A stretch of 43,950 nucleotides of DNA from a virus. Below are positions 4,904 through 30,062 of this stretch, in pieces (the first letter of the stretch is position 1; every line of letters begins with the position of its first letter). The notes beneath the pieces are model-generated. The model did not search any database and was not told where the DNA came from. It was given only the letters and a program-made list of their open reading frames with translations. Both the position numbers and the translations under genes were made by a program. The stretch is from positions 1 to 43,950 of the IMG/VR virus record IMGVR_UViG_3300042010_000092; one strand, written 5' to 3'.

Positions 4904-6301
4904 ATGGCTGTTGATAATACGCTACTCATGCGTGAAGTTGATGACATTCGTGATAACGGTGAAGGTAATTCCGGATGGCGCATTGATTGTCAACTCATCG
5001 TAAAAGAAACAACATGGATCAAACCACAGAAAGTTGAATTCGAAACGCTCAGTCGGAACTACGCTGATAAAGCACAGTTCTCTGATCGACGTATGATCCA
5101 GTTCATGTTGCAACAAGGGGATTTCCAATACGACGTTGTGCCTAATCGGGATAACCTGATGTGCGAAGTCGTGTACGTTCCTTTGAAGTACAATTCGAAC
5201 GCAATGGATACTACCCGGAAGTCTGAAGTTAAACGTTACCGAGCTGTGTTAATGACACAGTTCAACAATGCGTTGACTAACAAGAATGCTCAGACCAGTT
5301 CACGTGAATCACTGAACCAACTTGGTATGATTTCGGTGGCCGTACAGTTAATCGAAGAATCAGCATTTCGTGTTAACATGATGTCGTATGGTAATGGCTT
5401 ACGTCAATGCACTACGATGATGGCTATCCAAGAAGTCTTGGCTTCTACAATGGGTGACGTGGGTACTCAAGATGCTAAACGCATTAAGGGTATCAATTTC
5501 CTCGATGGGTATAACACTGAGATCCGTACGGTCATGGACTTTCCTGACGGGATGATGTTGAAAGACGTCCCTCATTACATCCATGAAGAAGAAGGTGGTG
5601 TGTATCCAACAGGTTTTGGCCGTTATCTCCAAGATCAGTATTGGTACATCTATCCCCTGTACGACTCTACTCGGTATAAGAAGAACACCAAAGTTCTGAA
5701 ATTGATCAACGTTCCTAACGATCGATATCAAGGTGCTGAGCGAACATATAAAGTCGATGAGCAACATGTCACGGTACTCGCCACAGGCGATGCAAGCTCC
5801 CTAGACAACGGTTTAGCCGATAACCTGAAACAAGGTAACGGTTTACGCTTTGGTGACGTTACAAAGCTTCTGGGAGAGTTTGGTAAGGCTAAGGATAACC
5901 GCACGTTAGTTGACCGGGCTACAAATCTGTTTGAAGTATCTACAGGTCTGTTGGAGTCTGGTTATAACAATGTGCGTTGGGCTTACGACAGAGCTACGTC
6001 TAACCCATTCAAACATTACTCAGAAATGGCTAGACGGCGTGGGATGTTTATCAAGCTGCAGTGGTATCATGGGGATTCGGATTTGTTGTACCCAGGAATG
6101 CCGGTTAAGTTTATGACTATTAATGACAACGATGTAGAAACTTACAACGGTGTGTTATTAGGTGTAGACGAACAACGAGGACAACAAGACTCAAACGTGG
6201 AAGTTACATCACACGTTGGGATTGTGACGCTCGCTGTGTTCATTAACCGTAAAGAAGGTGATCCGGTCATTGTTGACCCAGATGCCCCTCGCACGAATTG
6301 A
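4904..6301 (+). CDS. Probable virion structural protein
   Basis: A 465-residue soluble protein. The middle part (about residues 200-290) is rich in Tyr, Gly and Asp, and the C-terminal 60 residues look like a beta domain ending in VDPDAPRTN. GGAG 8 bases upstream supports ATG 4904. It is the last of the four-gene run and ends 3 bases before a hairpin, so it closes the transcription unit. No family recognised; a tail or baseplate role is plausible but not shown. Confidence 0.6.
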   Translation: MAVDNTLLMREVDDIRDNGEGNSGWRIDCQLIVKETTWIKPQKVEFETLSRNYADKAQFSDRRMIQFMLQQGDFQYDVVPNRDNLMCEVVYVPLKYNSNAMDTTRKSEVKRYRAVLMTQFNNALTNKNAQTSSRESLNQLGMISVAVQLIEESAFRVNMMSYGNGLRQCTTMMAIQEVLASTMGDVGTQDAKRIKGINFLDGYNTEIRTVMDFPDGMMLKDVPHYIHEEEGGVYPTGFGRYLQDQYWYIYPLYDSTRYKKNTKVLKLINVPNDRYQGAERTYKVDEQHVTVLATGDASSLDNGLADNLKQGNGLRFGDVTKLLGEFGKAKDNRTLVDRATNLFEVSTGLLESGYNNVRWAYDRATSNPFKHYSEMARRRGMFIKLQWYHGDSDLLYPGMPVKFMTINDNDVETYNGVLLGVDEQRGQQDSNVEVTSHVGIVTLAVFINRKEGDPVIVDPDAPRTN

Positions 6302-6721: not shown

Positions 6722-6760
6722 TTAAACCATTTAAAGGCCTATATTACGAATGTGAATCTA
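6722..6760 (+). promoter_or_regulatory. Early-type promoter, tripartite
   Basis: Upstream block TTAAACCATT (6722), 8-base spacer, core TATATTAC (6740-6747), then GAATGTGAAT. The same three blocks recur at 7613, 8221, 9828 and 12018. TATATTAC matches the early-promoter motif described for phage phiKZ. It drives the gene at 6782. Confidence 0.75.
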
Positions 6761-6781: not shown

Positions 6782-7102
6782 ATGGACACTGCATCGAAGA
6801 TTGTGCTGGGTTTCATTGGTTGCGTTGGTAGTGTTTGCCTCGCTTCCTGCGTACGAGTTGGACTGCGTGCCAAAAAGACAACTGCAGCCATGGATCAAAT
6901 GGAAGCAGAACTCAACATCATCAACTGGCAGTACAACGAAGGTGACATCTCTCGCCCTCAGGCTGAGCGTGCCATCGACGTGGTTGTCGATAAATATAAA
7001 GCCATCTACATGACCTACTCGCTGGACAAAAGCGATGAGGTTCGTGACTTCTTCGAGAAGCACCGGGAAGGCAAAAAGAAATTGTTGGGGTTCCCTGCAT
7101 GA
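6782..7102 (+). CDS. Membrane-anchored small protein, N-terminal TM
   Basis: 106 residues. Residues 6-24 form a hydrophobic helix with four Cys in and just after it, followed by a Lys/Arg stretch (positive-inside) and a charged helical tail. AAAGG upstream supports the start. The tail pattern (G-x-I-x-R, then K/R-Y and S-L/F-x-K/Q) resembles the genes at 7293 and 12993, suggesting paralogues. First gene of the block under the 6740 promoter; its stop overlaps the next start by ATGA. Function unknown; an inner-membrane role early in infection is inferred. Confidence 0.75.
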   Translation: MDTASKIVLGFIGCVGSVCLASCVRVGLRAKKTTAAMDQMEAELNIINWQYNEGDISRPQAERAIDVVVDKYKAIYMTYSLDKSDEVRDFFEKHREGKKKLLGFPA

Positions 7103-7260
7103 ACGAACAAATTGATGATGCTGTAAACGAACGCTACCGTAAAATGGCTGAAGGCAAAGAACCCAAGCCAGTGCAAAAAGACATTCTCTGGATCACTCCA
7201 CGTAAACTGGGCGTACTCTTCGGAGTAAGCCTGGTTATGTCCCTCATCATCCTCGGTTGA
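7099..7260 (+). CDS. Tiny C-tail-anchored membrane protein
   Basis: 53 residues. The first 35 are charged and the last 18 (LGVLFGVSLVMSLIILG region) form a transmembrane helix ending at the C-terminus. The start overlaps the upstream stop as ATGA, so translation is probably coupled. C-tail anchoring with a soluble N-terminus is the reverse of its neighbours. Function unknown. Confidence 0.7.
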   Translation: MNEQIDDAVNERYRKMAEGKEPKPVQKDILWITPRKLGVLFGVSLVMSLIILG

Positions 7261-7292
7261 ATCCAATCCGCCATTAGGCGAAGGAGCTTCAC

Positions 7293-7610
7293 ATGGCTAC
7301 GAGCAATACAATGGTTCTTACAACGGTTGGCTTTTCTGCCCTGTTCGTTTGGGGCATGGCAAAGCTCGGCATGCGGGTAACCGAATGCTGCCGCTGTGTA
7401 GAAGAGTACACCGCTGAGTTTGAAAAGATTCGTGAGCGTCAACTCTCGAAAGCTATCACTCGGACGGAAGCCCTGGAAGAACTCAGTGTCGCACACAAGC
7501 GCATTGAGCGTCGTTATCTGCGCGTGTCGTTCAATCAGGAACGCAGCAAGATGTGGCTGAAACAAATGTACGCCATCCATCGTCACCTGATCATACTCGC
7601 GGAAGTATGA
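7293..7610 (+). CDS. Membrane-anchored small protein, N-terminal TM
   Basis: 105 residues: a hydrophobic segment at about 8-25, a Cys pair in ECCRC near 31-35, then a long charged, probably coiled-coil tail. AAGGAG 8 bases upstream. The tail shares a pattern (A-I-T-R-x-E-A, then R-Y-L-R-V-S-F) with the proteins at 6782 and 12993. Followed at once by a promoter, so it likely ends the first small operon. Confidence 0.75.
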   Translation: MATSNTMVLTTVGFSALFVWGMAKLGMRVTECCRCVEEYTAEFEKIRERQLSKAITRTEALEELSVAHKRIERRYLRVSFNQERSKMWLKQMYAIHRHLIILAEV

Positions 7611-7612
7611 TT

Positions 7613-7654
7613 TAAAACAATTATAGGGCTATATTACTATTGTGACATAGCCCC
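7613..7654 (+). promoter_or_regulatory. Early-type promoter with inverted repeat
   Basis: TTAAAACAATT (7613-7623), 7-base spacer, TATATTAC (7631-7638), then TATTGTGACAT. GGGCTAT (7627-7633) and ATAGCCC (7648-7654) form a 7 bp inverted repeat around the core. Same family as the promoter at 6740; drives the genes at 7681 and 7840. Confidence 0.75.
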
Positions 7655-7680
7655 AATAAAATACTTTAAGGAGTTACACA

Positions 7681-7800
7681 ATGCAATCTTTCGCAATCGC
7701 TGTAGGTAAGGCAATCGTTGTTGGCGTAGGTTCTCACTACCTCACCAAAGCCATCATCAAAACCGTTGATGCACAAGTTGCAAAACGTAAGAAAGCCTAA
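7681..7800 (+). CDS. 39-residue amphipathic or membrane peptide
   Basis: Start has AAGGAG 7 bases upstream. The first 20 residues are hydrophobic with small side chains, then a GSHYLTKAI motif and a Lys-rich end. A near copy of this motif (VSHYAVKAI) occurs in the 40-residue protein at 8481, so the two are paralogues. The hydrophobic part may span or lie on the membrane. Function unknown. Confidence 0.7.
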   Translation: MQSFAIAVGKAIVVGVGSHYLTKAIIKTVDAQVAKRKKA

Positions 7801-7839
7801 ACCACAACACCACATTAAATTTCAAGCTAAGGGATCTAC

Positions 7840-8220
7840 ATGAACACTATCGCCATTTGCGTGCTGCTCGCTATCGCTTTCGTAATCTACCGTGCACACG
7901 CAAATCGTGGTCGCCATGCTGAAGAACAACGCATCGACCGTGAAGTTGCAAACATCGTTTCTCGTCTGATCCAAACGACTCCTGAGTTTTTCAGTCAGTC
8001 TGGTCTGTACACCGCTGCAAGCTCCACCCTCGAATTCGAATTCCGTTGGCTGCCTGTGTATCGGGCTGCCTTCAAACGCCGCATGATCAAGCTGGAAGAA
8101 GCCCCTAAAGCAATGCAAGTAGTTGGCTATAGTCATCAACTGCGTTTCTTTGGCAATACCATTCCAGTAAAGAACTACGTTGACATTACCGAAACTGCTT
8201 TCGTTGAACGCGTAGCTTGA
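7840..8220 (+). CDS. Signal-anchor protein, 126 residues
   Basis: Residues 3-18 form a short hydrophobic helix, followed by Arg/His-rich positive residues and a soluble domain of about 100 residues with basic patches (YRAAFKRRMIK). AAGGGA upstream. Membrane anchored with the soluble part probably cytoplasmic by the positive-inside rule. No family recognised. Confidence 0.75.
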   Translation: MNTIAICVLLAIAFVIYRAHANRGRHAEEQRIDREVANIVSRLIQTTPEFFSQSGLYTAASSTLEFEFRWLPVYRAAFKRRMIKLEEAPKAMQVVGYSHQLRFFGNTIPVKNYVDITETAFVERVA

Positions 8221-8260
8221 TTCAAAACGATTTAACCACTATATTACAACTGTGATAATC
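8221..8260 (+). promoter_or_regulatory. Early-type promoter, tripartite
   Basis: TTCAAAACGATT (8221-8232), 7-base spacer, TATATTAC (8240-8247), then AACTGTGATAAT. It lies immediately after the stop of the previous gene and upstream of the 8286 gene. Confidence 0.75.
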
Positions 8261-8285
8261 CCCCTCTAAGCTAAGGAGTTCCATC

Positions 8286-8453
8286 ATGATGAATGCAATC
8301 CGTCTCACCGCTCTGGGTCTGATCGGCGCTGCTCACGCAAAAGCTCTGTACGACGAAGCAACCGCACCCAAGCGTGACCTGACTCAAGTTGTTGTCAGCG
8401 GTTCCATCGTAACGCTGTGTGGCATCGCTGTAGTCACCATCCTCAAGAAGTAA
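8286..8453 (+). CDS. 55-residue two-helix membrane protein
   Basis: Two hydrophobic segments (about 5-18 and 36-52) separated by a charged linker, ending in LKK. AAGGAG at 8273-8278 is 7 bases from ATG 8286; a second ATG follows directly. The hairpin-like topology resembles the tandem pair at 11600 and 11808. Function unknown. Confidence 0.75.
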   Translation: MMNAIRLTALGLIGAAHAKALYDEATAPKRDLTQVVVSGSIVTLCGIAVVTILKK

Positions 8454-8480
8454 TCAACCGAATTGTTCAGGAGCTCCACA

Positions 8481-8603
8481 ATGAAAGACACTATTGTTGA
8501 ACTGGCAAGAAAGATCGCTATTGCCACTGCCATCGGTGTAGTGTCGCACTATGCTGTAAAAGCCATTGTGGAGGCTGAACAAAAAGCTAAAAAGCGCCGT
8601 TGA
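8481..8603 (+). CDS. 40-residue paralogue of the 7681 peptide
   Basis: AGGAG at 8469-8473 supports ATG 8481. The protein has a hydrophobic N-terminal helix, a GVVSHYAVKAI motif and a Lys/Arg tail, matching the 7681 product (GVGSHYLTKAI). A weak hairpin with T-run follows at 8646. Function unknown. Confidence 0.7.
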   Translation: MKDTIVELARKIAIATAIGVVSHYAVKAIVEAEQKAKKRR

Positions 8604-8645
8604 GCGCTGGGGTTCATGGTCAGTTGATCGTGGACCCTTGGTAAT

Positions 8646-8668
8646 AAATCAATCGCTGATTTCTTTTT
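8646..8668 (+). terminator. Weak intrinsic terminator
   Basis: AAATCA (8646-8651), loop ATCGC, TGATTT (8657-8662), then CTTTTT. Lies between the genes at 8481 and 8681. The AT-rich stem is short, so strength is doubtful. Confidence 0.45.
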
Positions 8669-8680
8669 GGGGTAAAAGCA

Positions 8681-9070
8681 ATGATCTATCTTTCTCGACA
8701 AGATTGTTTGGAACGTATGGAAATCCGCCTGCAGGTTAGCCTTGGGCGCCGGTTCAATAAGGCGGAAGAAATCGCACAGCGTACCAAAAGCGAACGGGTC
8801 CGTAAAAAGGCCCGTGGCTTTGTCGATGGTGTGAAGCGCCTCGCCAATCTGGCTATTGCTGAAGGCGATCAGCTCCGCGTGGACATGACCGATCAGGAAG
8901 TACGCGACATGGTCTGGTCTTCCCAACAAAAGGCGCTTCGCCTGATGCGTAAAAACCGTCTGCGCCTGAAAGGTGTTACCGGTGGCATGGGTATGGGTCG
9001 CTTCACTGGCCCCGATCGGGTTATCGCCCACCTCAACGAACTCCGTAACGAACTCAAGGCATTACCATGA
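8681..9070 (+). CDS. Basic soluble protein, 129 residues
   Basis: A strongly basic, helical protein (many R/K, e.g. RKNRLRLK near residue 90) with a Gly/Met-rich stretch (GGMGMGR) after it. No transmembrane segment, unlike most neighbours. GGGG lies about 10 bases before the start. The stop overlaps the next start by ATGA. Composition would suit nucleic-acid binding, but no domain is recognised. Confidence 0.7.
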   Translation: MIYLSRQDCLERMEIRLQVSLGRRFNKAEEIAQRTKSERVRKKARGFVDGVKRLANLAIAEGDQLRVDMTDQEVRDMVWSSQQKALRLMRKNRLRLKGVTGGMGMGRFTGPDRVIAHLNELRNELKALP

Positions 9071-9237
9071 AATTTAAAGGCATTTTCTCCCATGATCCGG
9101 CCAAGGCAATGTCTACCAAAGACATCGACCACCAGACAGCTCGTCTGAAATACATTGCTGCTATAGGTGGCTGTGTTTCCGTCGGATTGGCCATTGCACT
9201 GGGCTCTTTGAAGTTGGCGAATGAGTTGAAAAAATAA
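9067..9237 (+). CDS. 56-residue C-terminal TM protein
   Basis: A charged N-terminal half (residues 1-28) is followed by a hydrophobic helix (about 29-50) and a short ANELKK tail. Translationally coupled to the 8681 gene through ATGA, so the two may act together. Function unknown. Confidence 0.7.
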   Translation: MKFKGIFSHDPAKAMSTKDIDHQTARLKYIAAIGGCVSVGLAIALGSLKLANELKK

Positions 9238-9248
9238 TCAGCGCAATC

Positions 9249-9280
9249 TAATGAGAGGGATCGCTCCGGTCCCTCCATTA
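9249..9280 (+). terminator. Hairpin after the 9067 gene
   Basis: TAATG + bulged A + GAGGGA, 9-base loop, TCCCTC + CATTA: 11 paired bases. No T-run. It ends 26 bases before the macrodomain gene start and may terminate the upstream unit or shape the leader. Confidence 0.45.
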
Positions 9281-9306
9281 ATCCAACTTTCATGGGAGCC
9301 GGTTCA

Positions 9307-9780
9307 ATGGCTGAATTTATAATCGGTAAAGATGTCTTCAAAGAACCTGGAGATCTTTACGTCGTTACAGTAAATACAATCGGAGTGATGGGTGCAGGCG
9401 TTGCCAAGTCTTTCGCTGAGAATCACCACGATCTGTTTTTACGCTACAAACATGACTGCAAGATGAAGTCTATCACAATCGGTCATCCAGCTTTATACGA
9501 AGGCACAGACGGTAAGAAGTACCTAATGTTCCCGACGAAAGAGAACTGGAAGAATCCATCGACTTATGAATACGTTGCACTGGGCCTGCAGTGGATCGTT
9601 GACAATATCGGTGAAGATGAAGATCAAGTCAATCCTGCATGGAAACTAGTATTGCCTCCGCTCGGGTGTGGTAATGGTGGTCTAGACTTTGATATCGTTT
9701 CAGAGATGATTGAAGAAGCATCCCAAAAGATTCCTAACAAGGTGATCGTAGTCTATCCACCTTGGATGAGCAACAAATAG
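9307..9780 (+). CDS. DarG-type macrodomain protein (ADP-ribose hydrolase)
   Basis: 157 residues, a single macrodomain. Visible motifs: VNTIGVMGAGVAKSF at about 22-36, FPTKENWKNPS at 76-86 with the candidate catalytic Lys, and LPPLGCGNGGLDF at 116-128. These match the DarG/TARG1-like branch, which removes ADP-ribose from nucleic acid or protein. GGGAG at 9294-9298 fits ATG 9307 rather than the in-frame ATG at 9292. There is no DarT toxin gene beside it, so it is not a visible toxin-antitoxin pair; reversal of a host DarT-type defence is an attractive inference. Domain call is firm; substrate is not. Confidence 0.85.
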   Translation: MAEFIIGKDVFKEPGDLYVVTVNTIGVMGAGVAKSFAENHHDLFLRYKHDCKMKSITIGHPALYEGTDGKKYLMFPTKENWKNPSTYEYVALGLQWIVDNIGEDEDQVNPAWKLVLPPLGCGNGGLDFDIVSEMIEEASQKIPNKVIVVYPPWMSNK

Positions 9781-9788
9781 TGATACGC

Positions 9789-9819
9789 CATAAGTGCTTC
9801 CCGTGGGGAAGCCTTTATG
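9789..9819 (+). terminator. Palindromic hairpin with CATA/TATG flanks
   Basis: CATAAG T GCTTCCC, loop GTG, GGGAAGC CTTTATG: a 7 bp core and a 5 bp outer stem (CATAA/TTATG) split by a 2-base internal loop. It follows the macrodomain stop and precedes an early-type promoter. No T-run. Confidence 0.65.
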
Positions 9820-9827
9820 CCGTGACA

Positions 9828-9867
9828 TTAAAACGATTTGAATCCCTATATCACAATCCTGATAATC
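9828..9867 (+). promoter_or_regulatory. Early-type promoter, tripartite (core variant)
   Basis: TTAAAACGATT (9828-9838), 8-base spacer, TATATCAC (9847-9854), then AATCCTGATAAT. The core differs by one base from TATATTAC. Drives the operon from 9887. Confidence 0.7.
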
Positions 9868-9886
9868 CACGCTAAGGAGTTTCATT

Positions 9887-10168
9887 ATGCGCAACGTAAT
9901 CCTCACTGCTGTTGGTCTTGTTGGTGCAAGCTTTGCCTGTTACTGGAATGAATCCCGTCTGGCTCGTAACGATGCCATGCGCAAGATTCCGGATGAAATC
10001 AAAGAAGCGGCAGCGAAGTATACCTTCAAGCCAACCTTCGCCGAACTGAAGTCCGACCTGGAAATCTTCGAGATGTGGTCGACCGCTGGTCTGGCCATCG
10101 ATTCTCACCGCGAAGAGTTCATTGCTGAGCTCGACAAACAAATCCGTATGGCATCTAACGGTCTTTAA
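9887..10168 (+). CDS. Small protein with N-terminal signal/anchor helix
   Basis: 93 residues: MRN start, hydrophobic helix to about residue 19 with one Cys, then a charged soluble tail of about 70 residues. AAGGAG 8 bases upstream. Could be a signal anchor or an exported protein. First gene of an operon of four (9887-11005). Function unknown. Confidence 0.75.
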   Translation: MRNVILTAVGLVGASFACYWNESRLARNDAMRKIPDEIKEAAAKYTFKPTFAELKSDLEIFEMWSTAGLAIDSHREEFIAELDKQIRMASNGL

Positions 10169-10176
10169 GGGTCAGC

Positions 10177-10353
10177 ATGAAATCTGTAGCAGTAGTAGCA
10201 ACGGTAGCAGCAATCGGCGGTTTGGGTTACTTGGCTTATCGCCGATATAAAGCCGAACTGCTTAAGAATAGCCAGGTCATTGCAGGCCTGGCTGCTTCTG
10301 CAAAAGAAGCAAGCGACCGCGTCAAACACATTACTCGAAATAAGGCAGAATAA
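10177..10353 (+). CDS. 58-residue N-terminal TM protein
   Basis: Residues 3-20 form a small-residue hydrophobic helix (A, V, G), followed by YRRYK and a helical tail. GGG lies 6-8 bases before ATG 10177. The stop is immediately followed by the next ATG. Function unknown. Confidence 0.7.
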   Translation: MKSVAVVATVAAIGGLGYLAYRRYKAELLKNSQVIAGLAASAKEASDRVKHITRNKAE

Positions 10354-10782
10354 ATGATGTCGTACTCTGATGCTGAACTCGTTACTTTCCGTACCCACCT
10401 GACTCATCAGGTTCTGCAAGCAGCTTTCACCTTCGGCCCGAAATCGCCACTGGCCAAACGTAGCTGCACAGGCCAATTGATTTCCCAGATTCGCTGCACC
10501 ATGGAAGCCCACGAGGCTATCTACGATATCCAGTACTTCGCCGATGGCAAGACTTACCCTGCCCGCGAAGTGGTACGCTTCAACGATTGCCCTGTGCAGA
10601 AATACATCTGCCAGCGTTTCAACCTGTTGATCTTCGGCGAGTCTGTCGTAGATGTTGCTGCCTTCGGTATTGGCGGTATCGAAGTGGATGGTGAATCCCA
10701 TCCACATTCTAACGGTGGCTTGCTGCGCAACTTTTTCCGTGAGGAAGTAGAACGCCAGGTTACTGAAAAAGCTATCAACTAA
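10354..10782 (+). CDS. Soluble unknown protein, 142 residues
   Basis: No transmembrane helix. Contains four Cys (RSCTG, IRCTM, NDCPV, YICQR) and a Gly-rich segment near 103-120. Starts directly after the previous stop (TAAATG); ATG 10357 is an alternative start one codon later. Part of the operon under the 9847 promoter. No family recognised. Confidence 0.7.
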   Translation: MMSYSDAELVTFRTHLTHQVLQAAFTFGPKSPLAKRSCTGQLISQIRCTMEAHEAIYDIQYFADGKTYPAREVVRFNDCPVQKYICQRFNLLIFGESVVDVAAFGIGGIEVDGESHPHSNGGLLRNFFREEVERQVTEKAIN

Positions 10783-10795
10783 GTTAGGAGATTGC

Positions 10796-11005
10796 ATGAG
10801 AGAAATTAACAAGTATCCGCGTGAGTTCTTGCCACGGCAGGCACAAAAGCGAATTGCTGCAATCGAACACAATCAGGAATACGTCGCCAAGCGTATCGAA
10901 GATGAATCGACACAATCCATTCGTGCCGAAATGGCATTAATGTCGCTGGATGGAAAACATCCGCTGGGTGATACGTTTGATGTATGGCCCGTGCTCGAGA
11001 AGTAA
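10796..11005 (+). CDS. Soluble unknown protein, 69 residues
   Basis: A charged helical protein with basic N-terminal half and acidic C-terminus. TAGGAG about 6 bases upstream supports ATG 10796. It ends at a strong GC hairpin, so it closes this operon. Function unknown. Confidence 0.7.
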   Translation: MREINKYPREFLPRQAQKRIAAIEHNQEYVAKRIEDESTQSIRAEMALMSLDGKHPLGDTFDVWPVLEK

Positions 11006-11034
11006 GAACGTGGGGGCTGCGGCCCCCGCAGTTC
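11006..11034 (+). terminator. Strong GC hairpin
   Basis: GGGGGC (11012-11017), loop TGCG, GCCCCC (11022-11027), with outer GAAC (11006) and GTTC (11031) able to pair. Directly after a stop codon; no T-run follows. Confidence 0.6.
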
Positions 11035-11095
11035 ATCTGTGATAGATTGTATCGATCTATGACAAATGAGTTGCACCCACATTAAGGATAACACC

Positions 11096-11278
11096 ATGAA
11101 AATCAAATTCCAAACTGTTTACTTCCTGATCGGCCTGGCTATTGGTTCGATGGGTCTGGAGCAACTCAGTAATCTGAGCAGCCCAAATCACGCTGAAACT
11201 GTTGCTGCTGTAAAGAAAGAAATTATTCTTGGTCACCGCATCGGTCCTAATGGCACTGAGATGTTGGTGGTACGATGA
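11096..11278 (+). CDS. 60-residue signal-anchor protein
   Basis: Lys-rich start, hydrophobic helix at about 6-20 (VYFLIGLAIGSMG), then a polar tail. AAGGA 9 bases upstream fits ATG 11096 better than the in-frame ATG 11066. The stop overlaps the next start (ATGA). Anchored or exported; function unknown. Confidence 0.7.
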   Translation: MKIKFQTVYFLIGLAIGSMGLEQLSNLSSPNHAETVAAVKKEIILGHRIGPNGTEMLVVR

Positions 11279-11583
11279 AAGAATTGTTCGACTTCGCTGC
11301 GATCATAGCGCCATTTGTATTGGCGTTTTGCGTAACGTTCTTCGAGGCTTTCGTTAAGTCTTTCCAATCCCGAAATATTGCACAGGGCCACGAGTGGGTT
11401 TCTGCAGGTACTTCGGTACTGGTAACTACCACGATCTTCGCAACGTTCGGGTTGTTCCTGCATTCTGGTTGGATTGTGTTTGTACCATCCGCATTGGGTG
11501 GAGCAATAGGTACGTTCTATTCAATACGTACCCACAAGCGTTTGTTCAAGAAAACAAAATCAGTTACACTAAACCCAATTTAA
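11275..11583 (+). CDS. Integral membrane protein, about three TM helices
   Basis: 102 residues with hydrophobic segments at about 7-28, 45-62 and 65-80, and a basic C-terminus (THKRLFKKTK). Coupled to the previous gene by ATGA. The most hydrophobic protein in the block. No family recognised; holin-like proteins have similar size and topology, but nothing here supports lysis. Confidence 0.75.
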   Translation: MKELFDFAAIIAPFVLAFCVTFFEAFVKSFQSRNIAQGHEWVSAGTSVLVTTTIFATFGLFLHSGWIVFVPSALGGAIGTFYSIRTHKRLFKKTKSVTLNPI

Positions 11584-11599
11584 GTAAAGGTAATCGATC

Positions 11600-11806
11600 A
11601 TGGCATTTCTCGCTAAAGTTACAACTTGCATGTGTGCTGGTGCTACCATGGCTATGGGCTTGTCCCTGCTCAAGACCGGTACTAAAGTAACCCGTGCTGA
11701 TAAAGAAATTGATCAGCAGGTAGTTATTGGCTTTGGCGCGTTGCTGACCGCGGTCGGTGCCGTTACCGCAATTCAAACCCTCTCGGATATCTGGGAAAGG
11801 AAATAA
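11600..11806 (+). CDS. Two-TM small membrane protein (paralogue A)
   Basis: 68 residues with two hydrophobic segments (about 5-24 and 42-58) separated by a charged loop (TRADKEIDQQ). AAAGG upstream. Aligns along its length with the next gene's product: both have A-G-A/T, G-x-x-L/M-L-K-x-G and a second helix ending in TA(V/G)xAVT. Tandem duplication is the simplest explanation. Confidence 0.75.
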   Translation: MAFLAKVTTCMCAGATMAMGLSLLKTGTKVTRADKEIDQQVVIGFGALLTAVGAVTAIQTLSDIWERK

Positions 11807-11807
11807 C

Positions 11808-12005
11808 ATGGGTCTCTTTAATCGTCTTGCAATTGGTCTGGCCGCTGGTACCGCAATCGGCCTTGGCTGCGTCATGCTCAAAGCAGGTATCGACAACTCC
11901 AACAAACGTCATGCCCGTCGTGACGTAACCATTCTTTTGAGTGGTGGGGTTCTGTGCGTTACCGCTGGGCTGACTGCCGTTACCACAGCCATCGTCAACG
12001 AATAG
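11808..12005 (+). CDS. Two-TM small membrane protein (paralogue B)
   Basis: 65 residues, same two-helix layout as the 11600 product, loop KRHARRD. ATG 11808 is preceded by AAAGGA and lies one base after the previous stop. Ends at an AT-rich inverted repeat (AATAGC 12001, GCTATT 12013) just before a promoter. Function unknown. Confidence 0.75.
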   Translation: MGLFNRLAIGLAAGTAIGLGCVMLKAGIDNSNKRHARRDVTILLSGGVLCVTAGLTAVTTAIVNE

Positions 12006-12017
12006 CCGTTTCGCTAT

Positions 12018-12060
12018 TTAAAACAATTGAAAAGCTATATTACAATCTTGAATATAGCAC
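12018..12060 (+). promoter_or_regulatory. Early-type promoter with inverted repeat
   Basis: TTAAAACAATT (12018-12028), 7-base spacer, TATATTAC (12036-12043), then AATCTTGAATAT. GCTATATT (12034-12041) and AATATAGC (12051-12058) form a perfect 8 bp inverted repeat with a 9-base loop, overlapping the core. Drives the gene at 12083 and those after it. Confidence 0.75.
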
Positions 12061-12082
12061 GTTAAATCAAAAGGAATTCGTT

Positions 12083-12199
12083 ATGAAAACTTTCGGCAAA
12101 ATCATCATCGCCTCGGTTGTACTCGGTTGCATTCAACAGCTCGTTCTGTCTGCCTCCGACGCCTGCCGTCCAAATCCTAAAGTCGCTGACCCGAAGTAA
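12083..12199 (+). CDS. 38-residue exported or lipoprotein-like peptide
   Basis: MKTFGK, hydrophobic stretch to residue 15, then a lipobox-like VVLGC and a polar tail with a second Cys. AAGGA upstream. Looks like a signal peptide or tiny lipoprotein; alternatively an N-terminally anchored peptide. One of the smallest genes of the block. Confidence 0.65.
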   Translation: MKTFGKIIIASVVLGCIQQLVLSASDACRPNPKVADPK

Positions 12200-12247
12200 T
12201 CTCAGCCTCTTCAAAAAACCTTCTCAACTAATTTACGGAGTTCTACC

Positions 12248-12382
12248 ATGGCTAATGCATTCAACGAAATGGGCTTGTTCGGCAAAATTGTTGTTATCGC
12301 AATCGCTGCTGCAACTGTCAAAGCTTGCGCTGAGCACATCGCTGAAACCGTGAAGATGAACAAAGCTGCAAAAGCACAGTAA
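12248..12382 (+). CDS. 44-residue membrane peptide
   Basis: Hydrophobic helix at about 13-26 (IVVIAIAAATVKAC), then a charged Lys-rich tail. CGGAG upstream. Layout resembles the 7681 and 8481 peptides (helix, His, then K/A-rich tail) but identity is low. Followed by a hairpin at 12384. Confidence 0.65.
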   Translation: MANAFNEMGLFGKIVVIAIAAATVKACAEHIAETVKMNKAAKAQ

Positions 12383-12383
12383 A

Positions 12384-12404
12384 CCCCACCGGCCTCGTGT
12401 GGGG
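12384..12404 (+). terminator. Hairpin after the 12248 gene
   Basis: CCCCAC (12384-12389), 9-base loop, GTGGGG (12399-12404), right after the stop. No T-run. Confidence 0.4.
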
Positions 12405-12436
12405 CCAATTCCCAAAGCAATAGAAGGAAATACGTC

Positions 12437-12616
12437 ATGTTCAAGACCGTGCTGAAAATTACCGCTATCGCTGCCCTCGGTTACGTCGCCTTCCAGGTCG
12501 GTCGTAGCTGGGATGAGATCTCGGCTGATGCTGCTGAAATTGCCGACGATGTCGTGAATGGCCCCAACCCTCCGGCCGATGCCCCGAACCCGCCAAACCC
12601 AACTGTTGTGGAGTAA
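12437..12616 (+). CDS. 59-residue anchored peptide with Pro-rich tail
   Basis: N-terminal basic residues and hydrophobic helix (about 5-20), acidic middle (DEISADAAEIADD) and a tail of repeated N-P-P/P-N-P units (residues 41-56). AAGGA upstream. The Pro/Asn tail probably extends away from the membrane. Co-directional with the 12622 gene, 5 bases away. Confidence 0.7.
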   Translation: MFKTVLKITAIAALGYVAFQVGRSWDEISADAAEIADDVVNGPNPPADAPNPPNPTVVE

Positions 12617-12621
12617 TACCA

Positions 12622-12906
12622 ATGTCAGTGCTCGGTACACTATTCAAGGTCGGCGTCATTAGCTGCGCCGTGGTGGTTTGCCAGCGGTTCTGGGACCGCT
12701 ATCAAATCGAAGACCTCTATGTAGAACTGGACGCGATTACGGATCGTGTCCGAGCAGACAAGTCGCGGCACGGAACCGTGCGTGCAAACGTAAAGGTCGA
12801 GTCCCGCGAACTCCTCGACAAATACGAACGCAAAGTTACTTACGTGGACTCGCTTTATGAGTTGCGCAAGAACGTCGAAATCTACATCGAGTCGATTGTT
12901 GACTGA
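12622..12906 (+). CDS. N-terminal TM, coiled-coil tail protein
   Basis: 94 residues: hydrophobic helix at about 4-20 with two Cys, then a long charged helical region (LYVELDAI... RKNVEIYI). Likely anchored in the inner membrane with a cytoplasmic coiled coil. GTGGAG precedes the start by about 11 bases. Last gene before a true terminator. Confidence 0.7.
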   Translation: MSVLGTLFKVGVISCAVVVCQRFWDRYQIEDLYVELDAITDRVRADKSRHGTVRANVKVESRELLDKYERKVTYVDSLYELRKNVEIYIESIVD

Positions 12907-12910
12907 TGCC

Positions 12911-12954
12911 GGGTGGGGGAGGCGCAAGCTTCCCCTCCCAAACTTTTCTTTTTT
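12911..12954 (+). terminator. Intrinsic terminator with GCAA loop and T-tract
   Basis: An 8 bp stem, GGGGAGGC (12916-12923) with GCTTCCCC (12928-12935, one G-T pair), closes a GCAA loop; AAACTTTTCTTTTTT follows. A conventional rho-independent terminator at the end of the 12083-12906 operon. Confidence 0.75.
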
Positions 12955-12992
12955 ACACAATAATTATTTTATTTAAGCTAGGGGCAAACACC

Positions 12993-13328
12993 ATGATGAA
13001 TTTCCAAGTATACGTTGTGGGCCGTGTTGCCCTCAAGGTGGTGGCTGCAGCAGGCTTCATTGCTGTTTGCTCAGTCGCCAAACCAATGCGGGATATCGAA
13101 GATCAAATCGTGTTGCTCAAGTACGAGTGGCTCGAAGGAAAAACTCGCCAAGGAATCAATGATCGTCTGGCACAAGGGAAAATTAAACGCGACGAGTGGT
13201 TGGAACAGATGCACAATGGCCCTGCTCGCATTATGTGGGTAAACCTGTCGACATCGTTTCCTAAGCATCACCGCTATATCGCTAAACGTATTCGTGAAGA
13301 ATACCCTCATGCCACACGGTGGATTTAA
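12993..13328 (+). CDS. Membrane-anchored small protein, N-terminal TM
   Basis: 111 residues: hydrophobic helix at about 5-28, then an acidic-basic helical tail. AGGGG 8-9 bases upstream fits ATG 12993 (a second ATG follows). The tail (G-K-I-K-R-x-E-W, then S-T-S-F-P-K and REEYP) resembles the 6782 and 7293 proteins. Preceded by an AT-rich stretch (12945-12975) that may hold its promoter, but no TATATTAC is seen. Confidence 0.7.
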   Translation: MMNFQVYVVGRVALKVVAAAGFIAVCSVAKPMRDIEDQIVLLKYEWLEGKTRQGINDRLAQGKIKRDEWLEQMHNGPARIMWVNLSTSFPKHHRYIAKRIREEYPHATRWI

Positions 13329-13329
13329 T

Positions 13330-13518
13330 ATGCGTAAAGTTGCACTCGGAGTTATCTGTCTGTGCGCCTGTGTGTTGGGCGCTGGGCAGGCTGTTTGGGA
13401 ACTGACCCAACCAGTAGGGGAAGTATCTGAAATGTACTGCAAGCGTCCTGAGCGGCCTTGCATGAGTATTACGTACGAGGTTCCGCATGAAGCGATTACA
13501 GTTGCGAGTCACCCCTGA
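13330..13518 (+). CDS. 62-residue exported Cys-containing protein
   Basis: Starts one base after the previous stop; GGTGGA upstream. MRK followed by a hydrophobic stretch with three Cys (VICLCACVLGAG) resembles a signal peptide or lipobox. The rest is polar with two more Cys near 37 and 44. Its last 32 bases overlap the next gene in another frame. Confidence 0.65.
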   Translation: MRKVALGVICLCACVLGAGQAVWELTQPVGEVSEMYCKRPERPCMSITYEVPHEAITVASHP

Positions 13519-13780
13519 AGAAATGCTGATGCGTTATCCGCATCTTCGGGAACGTTTGGCTGCACAACCGGTTAAACAGGATGAGATAGAGATACCGTTC
13601 GATGTAGCGGTGTCTTTGCTGCGTACTCATGTAATACATAACCAACTCAAAGCGGGTCGTCCGCTTAAAGAAATTGTTGCTGCTTTGGACAATGTCGAGT
13701 TGCGTAATCAGATGACTGCTGAATTTCTCAGTGAAGTAGGGACTATCCATGCCACTGTTCAACGCGTTCCCTGCGCCTGA
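13487..13780 (+). CDS. Soluble helical protein, 97 residues
   Basis: Charged, helical, without membrane segment. CGAGG upstream supports the start inside the previous gene. It overlaps its neighbours by 32 bases on both sides. The N-terminal part (RLQLRVTPEEMLMRYPHL) is amphipathic. No family recognised. Confidence 0.65.
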   Translation: MKRLQLRVTPEEMLMRYPHLRERLAAQPVKQDEIEIPFDVAVSLLRTHVIHNQLKAGRPLKEIVAALDNVELRNQMTAEFLSEVGTIHATVQRVPCA

Positions 13781-14189
13781 TGTAACCTTCTCTCGCCGCG
13801 CACGGACGCGTGACGAGCGGCTTATGAATGAAGTCGCTCGACAGCTTCTGTTTCCAGAGATGAACCACTCATGGGTTTCCATGGGAACTGACCCTCTGGT
13901 AGAACCAAATGCGCGTGGGTTTAACATCAAGTTAGATGGGCGTTATACCGAGGAAGACCTCAAAAACATTTTCGTTGCGCTGCATCAGGCTAACTGGAAA
14001 GTTATCCGTCTGAAGTATCGTACCGATGTATCAACTGGTAAAACACGAACAACCATCGTACTAAGCGAATGGTTCAATACGGGGAAACAAGATGTTAGAA
14101 TTAGCACCATCGGCACTGCCATTGTTCCAGGAGATTGTCGGGAACCCAATGATCAAAAGTTGGTGGCACCGCCAGAACCGGTTCTGTGA
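13749..14189 (+). CDS. Soluble unknown protein, 146 residues
   Basis: Residues 55-105 look like an alpha/beta unit (INIKLDGRYTEEDL...VIRLKYRTD...TTIVLSEW). TAGGG 7-8 bases before ATG 13749. Its 3' end overlaps the next gene by 98 bases if that gene starts at 14092. The last 35 residues, in the overlap, look less structured. Function unknown. Confidence 0.65.
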   Translation: MPLFNAFPAPDVTFSRRARTRDERLMNEVARQLLFPEMNHSWVSMGTDPLVEPNARGFNIKLDGRYTEEDLKNIFVALHQANWKVIRLKYRTDVSTGKTRTTIVLSEWFNTGKQDVRISTIGTAIVPGDCREPNDQKLVAPPEPVL

Positions 14190-14604
14190 ATACCTGGACG
14201 AGCATCATGCCGGTTGGCGTGAAGGGTTGGAACTGATCCCGGTTGAAGATCTGGATGACCAGGTTACTAACTGGCGCCGTACCCTGAAACATCTGTTCGC
14301 ACAAGGCATGAAGTTCCGCATCGAGAACTGCCAGTCGTTCTGGTTTGTTCACACGCAGAAATCCAAATGGGCTGGTATCGAGGGCGAGCATACGCTGACT
14401 GAGCTGTGCTACGTTTCGTTGTTCGGTGATACCTTCTCGGGTCATGCTACCGAATACTTCGATCCTCGCCGGGTTGATTGCATTCGCTATGCTCTCCAAG
14501 GTCGCATGAATCTGGGCCTGACCACCAAGCCTTCGGGTATCGGTGTAAGCGTAGAAGAAGCAATCGCCGAAACCCAGCTCGAAAAGGAAAAGGAAGCAGC
14601 ATAA
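14092..14604 (+). CDS. Soluble unknown protein, 170 residues
   Basis: Trp-rich N-terminal third, then a mixed alpha/beta region and a Glu/Lys tail. ATG 14092 has GGGG 8 bases upstream; ATG 14149 with CGGGA is an alternative that would reduce the overlap with the upstream gene to 41 bases. The stop overlaps the next start as TAATG. No domain recognised. Confidence 0.65.
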   Translation: MLELAPSALPLFQEIVGNPMIKSWWHRQNRFCEYLDEHHAGWREGLELIPVEDLDDQVTNWRRTLKHLFAQGMKFRIENCQSFWFVHTQKSKWAGIEGEHTLTELCYVSLFGDTFSGHATEYFDPRRVDCIRYALQGRMNLGLTTKPSGIGVSVEEAIAETQLEKEKEAA

Positions 14605-14828
14605 TGCTAACACTACTATGGCGGCTGCTGTTTGGTGGCTGCCGCCATCAGTATCACCTGATTTCAAAAGAGCGTGTGTTGACGCGCCCTGACGGTACGT
14701 TTACTTCTATCGACACCGCAGGTAAGTACGTCTCACATGAACTGTTCACCTTTCAATGCATGTGTGGAAAAATCCTCACACGGCGTATTGACCAAGTTAC
14801 GGGGAAAATCAAATGTCACAGCAAGTAG
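14604..14828 (+). CDS. Putative zinc-ribbon-like small protein
   Basis: 74 residues. A Cys-x-His near the N-terminus (GGCRHQYH at 12-18) and QCMCGK at about 51-56 could bind a metal, with a last Cys near the end. The pattern H-x-Y/W, then L-I/H-S, then F/L-x-Q-C-x(1-2)-C-G also occurs in the 15328 protein. AAGGA upstream; start overlaps the previous stop. Zinc binding is inferred from residue spacing only. Confidence 0.65.
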   Translation: MLTLLWRLLFGGCRHQYHLISKERVLTRPDGTFTSIDTAGKYVSHELFTFQCMCGKILTRRIDQVTGKIKCHSK

Positions 14829-15124
14829 CTGAAAAAGGTTGTACCGCTCAAGTCATTTCGGATGACCAAGCAGCCGAACCGGTTAAGGACCAGGTTACCG
14901 GTAAGTTGGTTTACTCGATGCGTGGCATGTACATTGCCGACGCTAAAACCATCTGGCCTGATCGCACCGATGTTGAAGGTATGCAAGTTGCGATGGGTGA
15001 AATGTATTGCCATAACGGCTGGCATCCAACTCGTACATCGAAGATCATTCGGATCGATCGCGAGCAAGCTCTGGTTGAAACAGTGAATTCCATTTACCGC
15101 AGTACCGACGGCCGTCTGGCTTAA
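14813..15124 (+). CDS. Soluble unknown protein, 103 residues
   Basis: GGGGAAAATCAA precedes ATG 14813, which lies 16 bases inside the previous gene. The protein has a central region with Trp, Met and His (WPDRTDVEG... YCHNGWHPT) and no membrane segment. No family recognised. Confidence 0.7.
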   Translation: MSQQVAEKGCTAQVISDDQAAEPVKDQVTGKLVYSMRGMYIADAKTIWPDRTDVEGMQVAMGEMYCHNGWHPTRTSKIIRIDREQALVETVNSIYRSTDGRLA

Positions 15125-15133
15125 GGACTCACA

Positions 15134-15328
15134 ATGCACGCAACAATGGCAATGTGGGTAATTGGCGTGATGCTGTTCATGCTTTCAGTGATGTTGGTTG
15201 CAGCAATTGGTGCTACTTTTGGTGAACCACATTATCGCTCTCACCGACTGTGGTGGTTAGCGGGACTGATGGCTCCGGAAGTATTACTGATTCTGATCTG
15301 TTTAAACCATCTCCAAGGAATTAGCTGA
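15134..15328 (+). CDS. 64-residue two-TM membrane protein
   Basis: Two hydrophobic helices (about 4-29 and 40-58) separated by a His/Arg loop (EPHYRSHR). AAGGA 8 bases upstream. The stop overlaps the next start (TGATG). Function unknown. Confidence 0.7.
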   Translation: MHATMAMWVIGVMLFMLSVMLVAAIGATFGEPHYRSHRLWWLAGLMAPEVLLILICLNHLQGIS

Positions 15329-15585
15329 TGCCTCTTGAAGCATACGCACTGGCAGTGGCGATCATAGCTCTTGTAGTGGCTCTGGTGGCGTTGTATTACG
15401 CAACGCATACCAAGCGGCTGTATCAAGAAGTCCCACCTCCACATCAACACAAGTGGAAGCTCCTGCATTCTACTGACAAGATGCATGGCTGGAAAAACCA
15501 CGTAATCGGATATATCCATACTCTTCAATGTGAAGGTTGTGGGGACATCAAAGCAAAAGACGTCAAACTCTCCGGGAATAACTAA
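15328..15585 (+). CDS. TM protein with putative zinc site
   Basis: 85 residues: a strong N-terminal helix (about 6-25), a Pro/His linker (PPPHQHKW) and LQCEGCG at about 68-74. The His pair plus CxxC could form a metal site, as in the 14604 protein, which lacks the clear helix. AAGGA upstream; coupled to the previous gene. Membrane-anchored zinc-binding function is inferred. Confidence 0.7.
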   Translation: MPLEAYALAVAIIALVVALVALYYATHTKRLYQEVPPPHQHKWKLLHSTDKMHGWKNHVIGYIHTLQCEGCGDIKAKDVKLSGNN

Positions 15586-15586
15586 C

Positions 15587-16084
15587 ATGAACGATGCAAT
15601 CTTGCGTGTTGCGTTAGAACAAATGTTCTTTCGCTGCTGGGAACTCTCGACGTCCAAGCAGAATTACACCGACCTTCTGCGGGCAACTGTAGAGTTGGCG
15701 GAAAACATCCTGCCTTGCACCATGCGTCAGGTTCGCGAAAGTACCTCTTGGGAACAGTGGCAACGGAACTACAATGATCCACAAGCCTGGTTCCCACAGC
15801 GTATCTCTGATGATACGTTGCTGAACTGCTTTACCTCGAATCTTCTCGACAACTACTCTTTCCGTACCAACACAGATTGGAATCTGGAAGTGATCTGTAC
15901 CAGACGTTCGGTAGAAGAGAAGCTGGGCGTTGTCCAGTTCAACTATACCAACCTGGTAACGGATGGTCACAAACGTATCGGCCATTACACGGTCGTGTTC
16001 TTGAGTGATCTGGTTAAAGAGATCCATAAGCATTTGCGCTATCTGCGTGAGAACCATAACCCGTACGACTGTGAGTGCGAATGA
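15587..16084 (+). CDS. Soluble unknown protein, 165 residues
   Basis: Mostly helical N-terminal half, beta-rich second half (LEVICTRRSVEEK...YTVVFLSDL). GGGA about 9 bases before ATG 15587; the in-frame ATG at 15530 lies inside the previous gene without a ribosome site. The stop overlaps the next start (ATGA). No domain recognised. Confidence 0.7.
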   Translation: MNDAILRVALEQMFFRCWELSTSKQNYTDLLRATVELAENILPCTMRQVRESTSWEQWQRNYNDPQAWFPQRISDDTLLNCFTSNLLDNYSFRTNTDWNLEVICTRRSVEEKLGVVQFNYTNLVTDGHKRIGHYTVVFLSDLVKEIHKHLRYLRENHNPYDCECE

Positions 16085-16326
16085 CTATATCACCCATGGG
16101 CATTTATGCCCTGAGCGCGTTGCTCAGTCTTCTTGTTGCTTTTCTGTCAGGTTTTCACCAGCATCAGTTGGAGAAACGCCTTCAGCAACTGAATGTCTTA
16201 CAAGACGCTCAAGTTAAATACTTCAGTAATGTCTCTGGTTTATTCGGAGTTATTGCTTGGGTTGCATTGGCTTTCATTTTCTGTGTGTTGATGGTCAGAA
16301 GTGACCTAGCTGTACTCGGATTGTAA
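16081..16326 (+). CDS. 81-residue two-TM membrane protein
   Basis: Hydrophobic helices at about 7-26 and 53-74 with a charged helical linker. Start overlaps the previous stop as ATGA. Last of the membrane-protein block; two hairpins follow. Function unknown. Confidence 0.7.
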   Translation: MTISPMGIYALSALLSLLVAFLSGFHQHQLEKRLQQLNVLQDAQVKYFSNVSGLFGVIAWVALAFIFCVLMVRSDLAVLGL

Positions 16327-16403: not shown

Positions 16404-16428
16404 GCATTAGAGCATTTAGCTCTAATGC
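16404..16428 (+). terminator. Perfect 10 bp hairpin
   Basis: GCATTAGAGC (16404-16413), loop ATTTA, GCTCTAATGC (16419-16428), then ATCCTTTATTTTG. It sits in the gap between the membrane-protein block and the next operon. Probable terminator. The remaining 70 bases to the next gene show only its ribosome site. Confidence 0.6.
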
Positions 16429-29989: not shown

Positions 29990-30024
29990 GGACTATAAAA
30001 AATCTCAGATCTATATTACTACAT
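29990..30024 (+). promoter_or_regulatory. Second-type TATATTAC promoter
   Basis: ACTATAAAAAATCTCAGATC then TATATTAC (30012-30019) and TACATTG. Shares ATAAAA(AA)TCTCA with the site at 33491 and AGATCTAYATTACTACA with 19500. Drives the operon from 30063. Confidence 0.65.
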
Positions 30025-30062
30025 TGCAGCTATAACACAAAGACCAATCCGAGGTAATTGCC

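Follow-up and report, generated by a model that had tools for sequence, protein, structure and literature searches.

Early accessory regions of phiKZ-like phages are already known, and the closest described ones are phiKZ genes 1-24 and 102-116 with their counterparts in PA1C and PhiPA3. A review characterises early promoters as AT-rich, conserved, and some 10 nt long (PMC7598289, whose searchable text does not print the TATATTAC core treated below), macro domains are frequent among jumbo phages, with 56% carrying one (PMC9503650), and host defences have been reported to sense early jumbo-phage proteins at the vesicle (PMC13282480, PMC12931631). Here, we analysed IMGVR_UViG_3300042010_000092, a 44-kb fragment of a phiKZ-like nucleus-forming phage (43,950 nt; the window hereafter), in which positions 6782-16326 hold a cluster of 33 genes, most of them encoding very small predicted membrane proteins. 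We give an even chance to the reading that this cluster is an early inner-membrane host-takeover and counter-defence set.

Several kinds of evidence were counted for the takeover reading: the concentration of membrane genes that relatives show at this position, the early-type promoters, purifying selection combined with lineage-specific content and local duplications, a DarG-type macrodomain gene, the share of membrane proteins among first genes behind non-B promoters, the predicted orientations, and the reported sensing of early proteins by host defences. Since the membrane genes follow early-type promoters and the block is kept at the same place in relatives, it probably acts at the host inner membrane in the first minutes of infection.

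Membrane genes and early-type promoters

A membrane-spanning or signal segment was predicted in 21 of the 33 genes (approximate Hessa free energy, dG, <= 1.5 kcal/mol), and adding g04 and g07, both short and weakly hydrophobic, brings the count to 23. The predictor and the gene caller were home-made approximations, not TMHMM or DeepTMHMM. The initial annotation, made from the letters of the sequence, had given the same coordinates and 33 genes with about 23 membrane or exported proteins of 38-126 amino acids (aa), and the transmembrane prediction it proposed as a check was passed by most of the listed proteins. When the residues of the same proteins were shuffled, a mean of 5.7 (maximum 11) were membrane-like, compared with 20 observed among the 30 automatically called genes. 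In the next block downstream (16.5-24.1 kb), none of the 17 genes was membrane-like. One candidate, g13, passed the Kyte-Doolittle test, failed the dG threshold and was counted as soluble.

About 18 of the membrane-like proteins (38-126 aa) are predicted to be single-pass, and five have at least two segments. Most families have one N-terminal segment followed by positive charge, so that the C-terminal domain would be cytosolic by the positive-inside rule. The g02, g06, and g09 proteins have a C-terminal anchor segment, their soluble part being predicted as cytosolic too, and g17, g18, g30, and g33 are hairpin-like. The predicted orientation is uniform within most families but not in that of g15, a protein with N-terminal lysines. 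The features of the cluster are listed below, with TM standing for transmembrane segment.

6739-6755, + strand: early-type promoter P1, CTATATTAC N5 TGA, ATTTAAA upstream
6782-7102, + strand: g01, 106 aa, N-terminal TM and cytosolic domain, related to g03
7099-7260, + strand: g02, 53 aa, C-terminal TM, phiKZ102.1 family, FNG end in most relatives
7293-7610, + strand: g03, 105 aa, N-terminal TM and cytosolic domain
7629-7645, + strand: early-type promoter P2, CTATATTACN5TGA
7681-7800, + strand: g04, 39 aa, weakly hydrophobic helix and Lys tail, g07 paralogue
7840-8220, + strand: g05, 126 aa, N-terminal TM and small alpha/beta domain, possible structural relative in Noxifer
8239-8255, + strand: early-type promoter P3, CTATATTACN5TGA
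8286-8453, + strand: g06, 55 aa, C-terminal TM
8481-8603, + strand: g07, 40 aa, weakly hydrophobic helix and basic tail, g04 paralogue
8681-9070, + strand: g08, 129 aa, soluble, basic
9067-9237, + strand: g09, 56 aa, TM
9307-9780, + strand: g10, 157 aa, orphan DarG-type macrodomain, phiKZ104 family, alternative start 9292
9846-9862, + strand: early-type promoter P4, TATATCAC variant, one mismatch
9887-10168, + strand: g11, 93 aa, N-terminal TM and cytosolic domain
10177-10353, + strand: g12, 58 aa, N-terminal TM
10354-10782, + strand: g13, soluble
10796-11005, + strand: g14, soluble
11096-11278, + strand: g15, 60 aa, TM, C-terminal motif GHRIGPNGxEMLV
11275-11583, + strand: g16, 102 aa, two or three TMs, holin-like (PHROG 7045)
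11600-11806, + strand: g17, two-TM hairpin, g18 paralogue
11808-12005, + strand: g18, two-TM hairpin, g17 paralogue
12035-12051, + strand: early-type promoter P5, CTATATTACN5TGA
12083-12199, + strand: g19, 38 aa, single-TM miniprotein, related to g20
12248-12382, + strand: g20, 44 aa, single-TM miniprotein, related to g19
12437-12616, + strand: g21, 59 aa, TM and acidic Pro-rich tail
12622-12906, + strand: g22, 94 aa, TM and cytosolic domain, best conserved clade-specific member
12993-13328, + strand: g23, 111 aa, TM and all-helical domain
13330-13518, + strand: g24, 62 aa, signal-peptide-like N-terminus, then Cys-pair peptide, predicted exported
13487-15124, + strand: g25-g29, soluble, g29 being of the phiKZ011 family
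14604-14828, + strand: g28, soluble, CxH..CxxCG-like zinc-ribbon pattern
15134-15328, + strand: g30, 64 aa, two TMs
15328-15585, + strand: g31, 85 aa, N-terminal TM and zinc-ribbon-like domain
15587-16084, + strand: g32, soluble
16084-16326, + strand: g33, 80 aa, two TMs, final membrane gene of the cluster
16404-16428, + strand: terminator-like stem-loop of ten pairs, closely following g33 (sites of this kind show no enrichment over shuffles)
30011-30027: TATATTAC promoter site outside the cluster

The repeated early-type promoters reported in the initial annotation correspond to five sites with the TATATTAC core, all within the first 5.3 kb of the cluster and each placed before a gene group. 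The core is called early-type because it stands upstream of genes in phiKZ and its relatives and because we take it to be the phiKZ early promoter motif. Matches to CTATATTACN5TGA with up to two mismatches numbered 10 in the window against 2.5 expected; sigma-70 promoters showed no excess above shuffles. In the window, D6, Psa21, RVTF4, and phiKZ, the TATATTAC promoters come in two flavours, with either ATTTAAA or AAATCTCAGAT (type B) upstream. The type B sites were compared with all remaining early-type sites: the first gene was membrane-type behind 34 of 93 non-B promoters and behind 4 of 50 type B promoters (counts from related genomes, which are not independent), and type B promoters precede longer genes, rarely membrane ones. 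The ribosome sites, described earlier as good, were so by our measure, with a Shine-Dalgarno match of at least 4 nt at 4-10 nt spacing for 18 of the 23 membrane genes compared with 10% of all ATGs.

The holin-like g16 bears on whether the cluster could be a lysis module of holins, antiholins, and spanin-like proteins. The protein matches the PHROG 7045 holin (E 4.9e-11), and its relatives in Psa21 and RVTF4 are annotated as holins. However, early-type promoters precede g16, the cluster has no recognised endolysin, and g16 is the only one of the 23 proteins that is holin-like among those scanned. A lysis module was rejected for the cluster as a whole and is considered highly improbable.

Position and conservation of the locus

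The nearest named relatives of the window are the Pseudomonas phages D6 and Psa21, followed by RVTF4. The cluster is flanked as follows:

4904-6301: phiKZ101-like structural gene, left flank
24636-26168, minus strand: phiKZ118-like DnaB-like helicase, right flank

The layout of phiKZ101-like gene and DnaB-like helicase is common to phiKZ, PhiPA3, PA1C, Phabio, 201phi2-1, HPP-Temi, and Noxifer. Downstream of the cluster, one gene is related to the phiKZ123 polymerase subunit at 67% identity and another to JADA/phiKZ124 at 33%. Of the features of the Pseudomonas phiKZ-like early region, both flanks, TATATTAC early-type promoters, a phiKZ104-type macrodomain, and the phiKZ123/124 relatives were found here. 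The JADA/phiKZ124 relative (33560-35731), JADA/phiKZ124 being the reported Avs5 trigger, stands directly 3' of the phiKZ123-like polymerase subunit gene.

The density of membrane genes is maximal genome-wide at this locus in the complete genomes of D6, Psa21, RVTF4, PA1C, and PhiPA3, with 12 of 15 membrane genes in PA1C and 11 of 15 in PhiPA3 in windows of 15 genes. By permutation, windows of 15 genes gave P <= 0.017, and with windows of 31 genes none of 1000 shuffles reached the peaks. The membrane-gene peak of phiKZ and 201phi2-1 lies elsewhere in the genome, and no peak occurs here in EL or Goslar. The phiKZ peak, at about 236-251 kb and away from the syntenic locus, likewise has TATATTAC promoters. 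Judged by synteny, the cluster position is conserved across several Pseudomonas nucleus-forming phages, a point that the initial annotation had missed.

The families found beyond the clade of the window are g02, g09, g15, g16, g24, and the soluble g29. The g02 protein corresponds to phiKZ102.1 (E 5e-5 in a small database, with a clear alignment), and in PhiPA3, PA1C, Phabio, and 201phi2-1 a gene similar to g09 immediately precedes the one for the macrodomain (E 0.001 plus position). The g15 family comprises phiKZ010.1, EL gp83, PhiPA3 gp111, and 201phi2-1 gp173 and conserves the C-terminal GHRIGPxGxEMLV. Relatives of g16 were found in PA1C, 201phi2-1, and Noxifer, those of g24 in PA1C, PhiPA3, phiKZ, and Noxifer, and g29 belongs to the phiKZ011 family. 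That the PhiPA3 and PA1C clusters are wholly unrelated to this one was ruled out by family profiles (small database), which link g02, g09, g15, and g24.

The g24 protein has AxA-like cleavage sites and two conserved cysteines. Two unannotated open reading frames (ORFs) are homologous to it: one in phiKZ (AF399011, 5472-5645), which fits exactly between phiKZ012, with a 4-nt overlap, and phiKZ013, and one in PhiPA3 (106933-107115), between gp113 and gp114.

Weaker cross-genus signals were obtained for g11, g12, and g21, g11 giving a weak match (2.5e-4 in a 139-protein set) to the PhiPA3 member of the phiKZ012 family. As homologues of g01, g03, g05, g11, g22, or g23, the phiKZ012 family was rejected (hhalign probability <=1.4%), and phiKZ103 was not significant as a sequence homologue of g05. 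For the remaining families, members turned up only in five IMG/VR relatives and in the clade of D6, Psa21, and RVTF4. On these profile comparisons, the cluster consists of a small cross-genus core and a larger, faster-changing clade-specific part. Several paralogues had been noted before, and four pairs were supported at family level (g04/g07, g17/g18, g19/g20, and g01/g03), the g06/g11 and g06/g18 links being weak.

The pooled ratio of nonsynonymous to synonymous changes (pN/pS) of the membrane genes was 0.37 in the comparison with the closest relative and 0.44-0.53 in those with four other relatives, similar to that of the soluble neighbours (0.33-0.49). On these ratios, the genes of the cluster are real and under purifying selection. 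They bear on a reading in which the genes are mostly neutral accessories with little function, accumulated in an early-gene hotspot where short hydrophobic ORFs arise and are tolerated. The fast turnover between genera, the very short genes, and the weak segments (mean dG of about 0 to 0.4 in the island versus -1.5 to -1.3 elsewhere in D6 and Psa21) agree with it. However, pN is below pS for nearly all genes, ribosome sites are good, most genes have orthologues in several relatives, and the core is kept across genera, which makes mostly neutral genes a very doubtful explanation.

The same distribution of families was weighed for the early vesicle, in whose lipid membrane some or all of the proteins would act as channels, as mRNA export or hand-over factors, or as nucleus-shell scaffolds. 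This reading is attractive in that the vesicle must contain channels still to be identified (PMC12908238) and in that early proteins there are reportedly sensed by host JukA (PMC13282480); the core families g02, g09, g15, and g24 also hold position or motif across genera. Against this, cryo-tomography suggests that the vesicle forms during DNA injection, before early genes are translated (review PMC13282480). Additionally, presence in every vesicle-forming phage was not found, as Goslar forms vesicles (PMC12908238) with neither such a cluster nor a detectable g15 relative, phiKZ, which has just a few such genes at the locus, makes them too, EL has g15 and no cluster, and most families are confined to one clade. 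We regard a vesicle role for these proteins as unlikely. In a narrower form, to which we give a slim chance, g02/phiKZ102.1, g09, g15/phiKZ010.1, and g24 would be phage-encoded membrane and lumen proteins of the early vesicle in Pseudomonas nucleus-forming phages, and the clade-specific ones would tune it against host defences, so that a phage organelle would have a membrane proteome made by the phage itself.

The orphan macrodomain and the takeover reading

The g10 protein matches the PADLOC DarG model (E 1e-36) and, among known structures, the DarG macrodomains 5m3i and 5m31. Its K78 aligns with TaqDarG K80, the mutation of which abolishes activity (PMC5179494), and the counterparts of both the catalytic lysine (K80) and the asparagine (N22, VN motif) of DarG are present. 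The FPTK and VN motifs are conserved in all aligned Pseudomonas relatives; Goslar has FPSK. At 157 aa, g10 matches the macrodomain only, without the C-terminal DarT-binding domain, and a search of seven records, the window and six phage genomes, turned up no DarT. With a DarG-type match and no DarT found, g10 is not a member of a DarTG pair, and we infer that it would work like the DarG macrodomain. The counter-defence role proposed in the initial annotation thus gains a supporting setting, as an orphan DarG-type macrodomain with conserved catalytic lysine and asparagine lies inside the cluster.

Under the takeover reading, the injected virion RNA polymerase would transcribe the cluster in the first minutes, and the proteins would insert into the host inner membrane, possibly also into the early vesicle derived from it. 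The small cytosolic domains displayed there may bind membrane-linked host proteins of defence or metabolism and so block them, the macrodomain protein would strip ADP-ribose placed by host DarT-like toxins, and most members would be individually dispensable.

Some results weigh against takeover. No membrane protein of the cluster matches a known defence inhibitor. The AlphaFold2 model of g05 has a long helix and a small alpha/beta domain (mean pLDDT 85), and that of g23 is all-helical (mean pLDDT 80); neither protein gained a match of known function in structure searches, made for g05 against the PDB and viral models and for g23 against viral models. With Foldseek, nothing convincing was found for g05 in the PDB or for g23 among viral models, and g05 matched viral models of Psa21 (E 2e-14) and Noxifer (E 7e-3, TM-score 0.50). 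Moreover, membrane genes do not clearly exceed soluble ones in pN/pS, a similarity that gives no indication of unusually strong arms-race selection. The core families g02, g09, g15, and g24 also look too conserved for purely opportunistic inhibitors.

In superinfection exclusion, the proteins would alter the inner membrane and block injection by later phages. Such a role would fit the predicted early timing, the small size and membrane location, the redundancy, and the clade-specific content, in all of which the set resembles known exclusion proteins such as T4 Imm and Sp. However, the proteins scanned, from part of the families, gave no match to a known exclusion family in Pfam or PHROGs, and, to our knowledge, twenty-odd genes far exceed the known exclusion sets; we find this role quite improbable. 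Exclusion, mostly neutral genes, and lysis fit less well than takeover. The interpretation in the initial annotation therefore held in part: the phiKZ-type phage, the early-type promoters, the small membrane proteins, and some paralogues stood, whereas the membrane remodelling that it proposed stays putative and the exclusion and vesicle roles that it also offered are rated low here. It had missed the DarG type of the macrodomain, the secreted look of g24, and the zinc-binding look of g28 and g31.

In two further proteins of the cluster, g28 and g31, a CxH..CxxCG-like zinc-ribbon pattern is shared, and by this pattern both look zinc-binding.

Meaning and comparison with described systems

Some twenty tiny "hypothetical" proteins appear here as real genes, grouped behind early-type promoters and predicted to be membrane-bound. 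They bear on the exchange of nucleotides and mRNA by the early vesicle and on the features of it that host defences sense. They also provide a short candidate list in the best-studied model phage, for which imaging and knockdown tools are at hand: phiKZ102.1, phiKZ010.1, and the unannotated phiKZ peptide at 5472-5645. The orphan DarG-type macrodomain predicts DarTG resistance. A limited literature search returned no description of the region as a membrane-protein cluster, and the available passages of the D6 genome paper do not mention one.

Compared with TaqDarG and M. tuberculosis DarG, g10 shares the macro fold by sequence, the FPTK lysine, the VN asparagine, and the G-rich ligand loop. It differs in that the MGKG lysine of TaqDarG (K29) is Ala in g10 (MGAG) and in that g10 is an orphan without the second DarG domain. 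AdfB of Vibrio phage ICP1, an anti-DarT factor (PMC11481870), resembles g10, by the predicted role of the latter, as a phage-encoded DarTG counter made early; AdfB binds DarT, whereas g10 is predicted to be a catalytic-type macrodomain.

The early host-takeover proteins phiKZ014 and phiKZ105 (PMC10914614) are similar as early proteins from the same kind of region. Both co-sediment with ribosomes, as does phiKZ110, which comes with phiKZ105 from the syntenic locus (PMC10914614), whereas the cluster proteins are mostly predicted to be in the membrane. The closest comparison is with the phiKZ-like early accessory regions themselves, which share with the cluster the locus, the TATATTAC promoters, the macrodomain gene, and the families g02, g09, g15, g24, and g29. 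The phiKZ locus has about 5 membrane or exported proteins, whereas about 21-23 are predicted here, most of their families having been found in the D6/Psa21/RVTF4 clade only.

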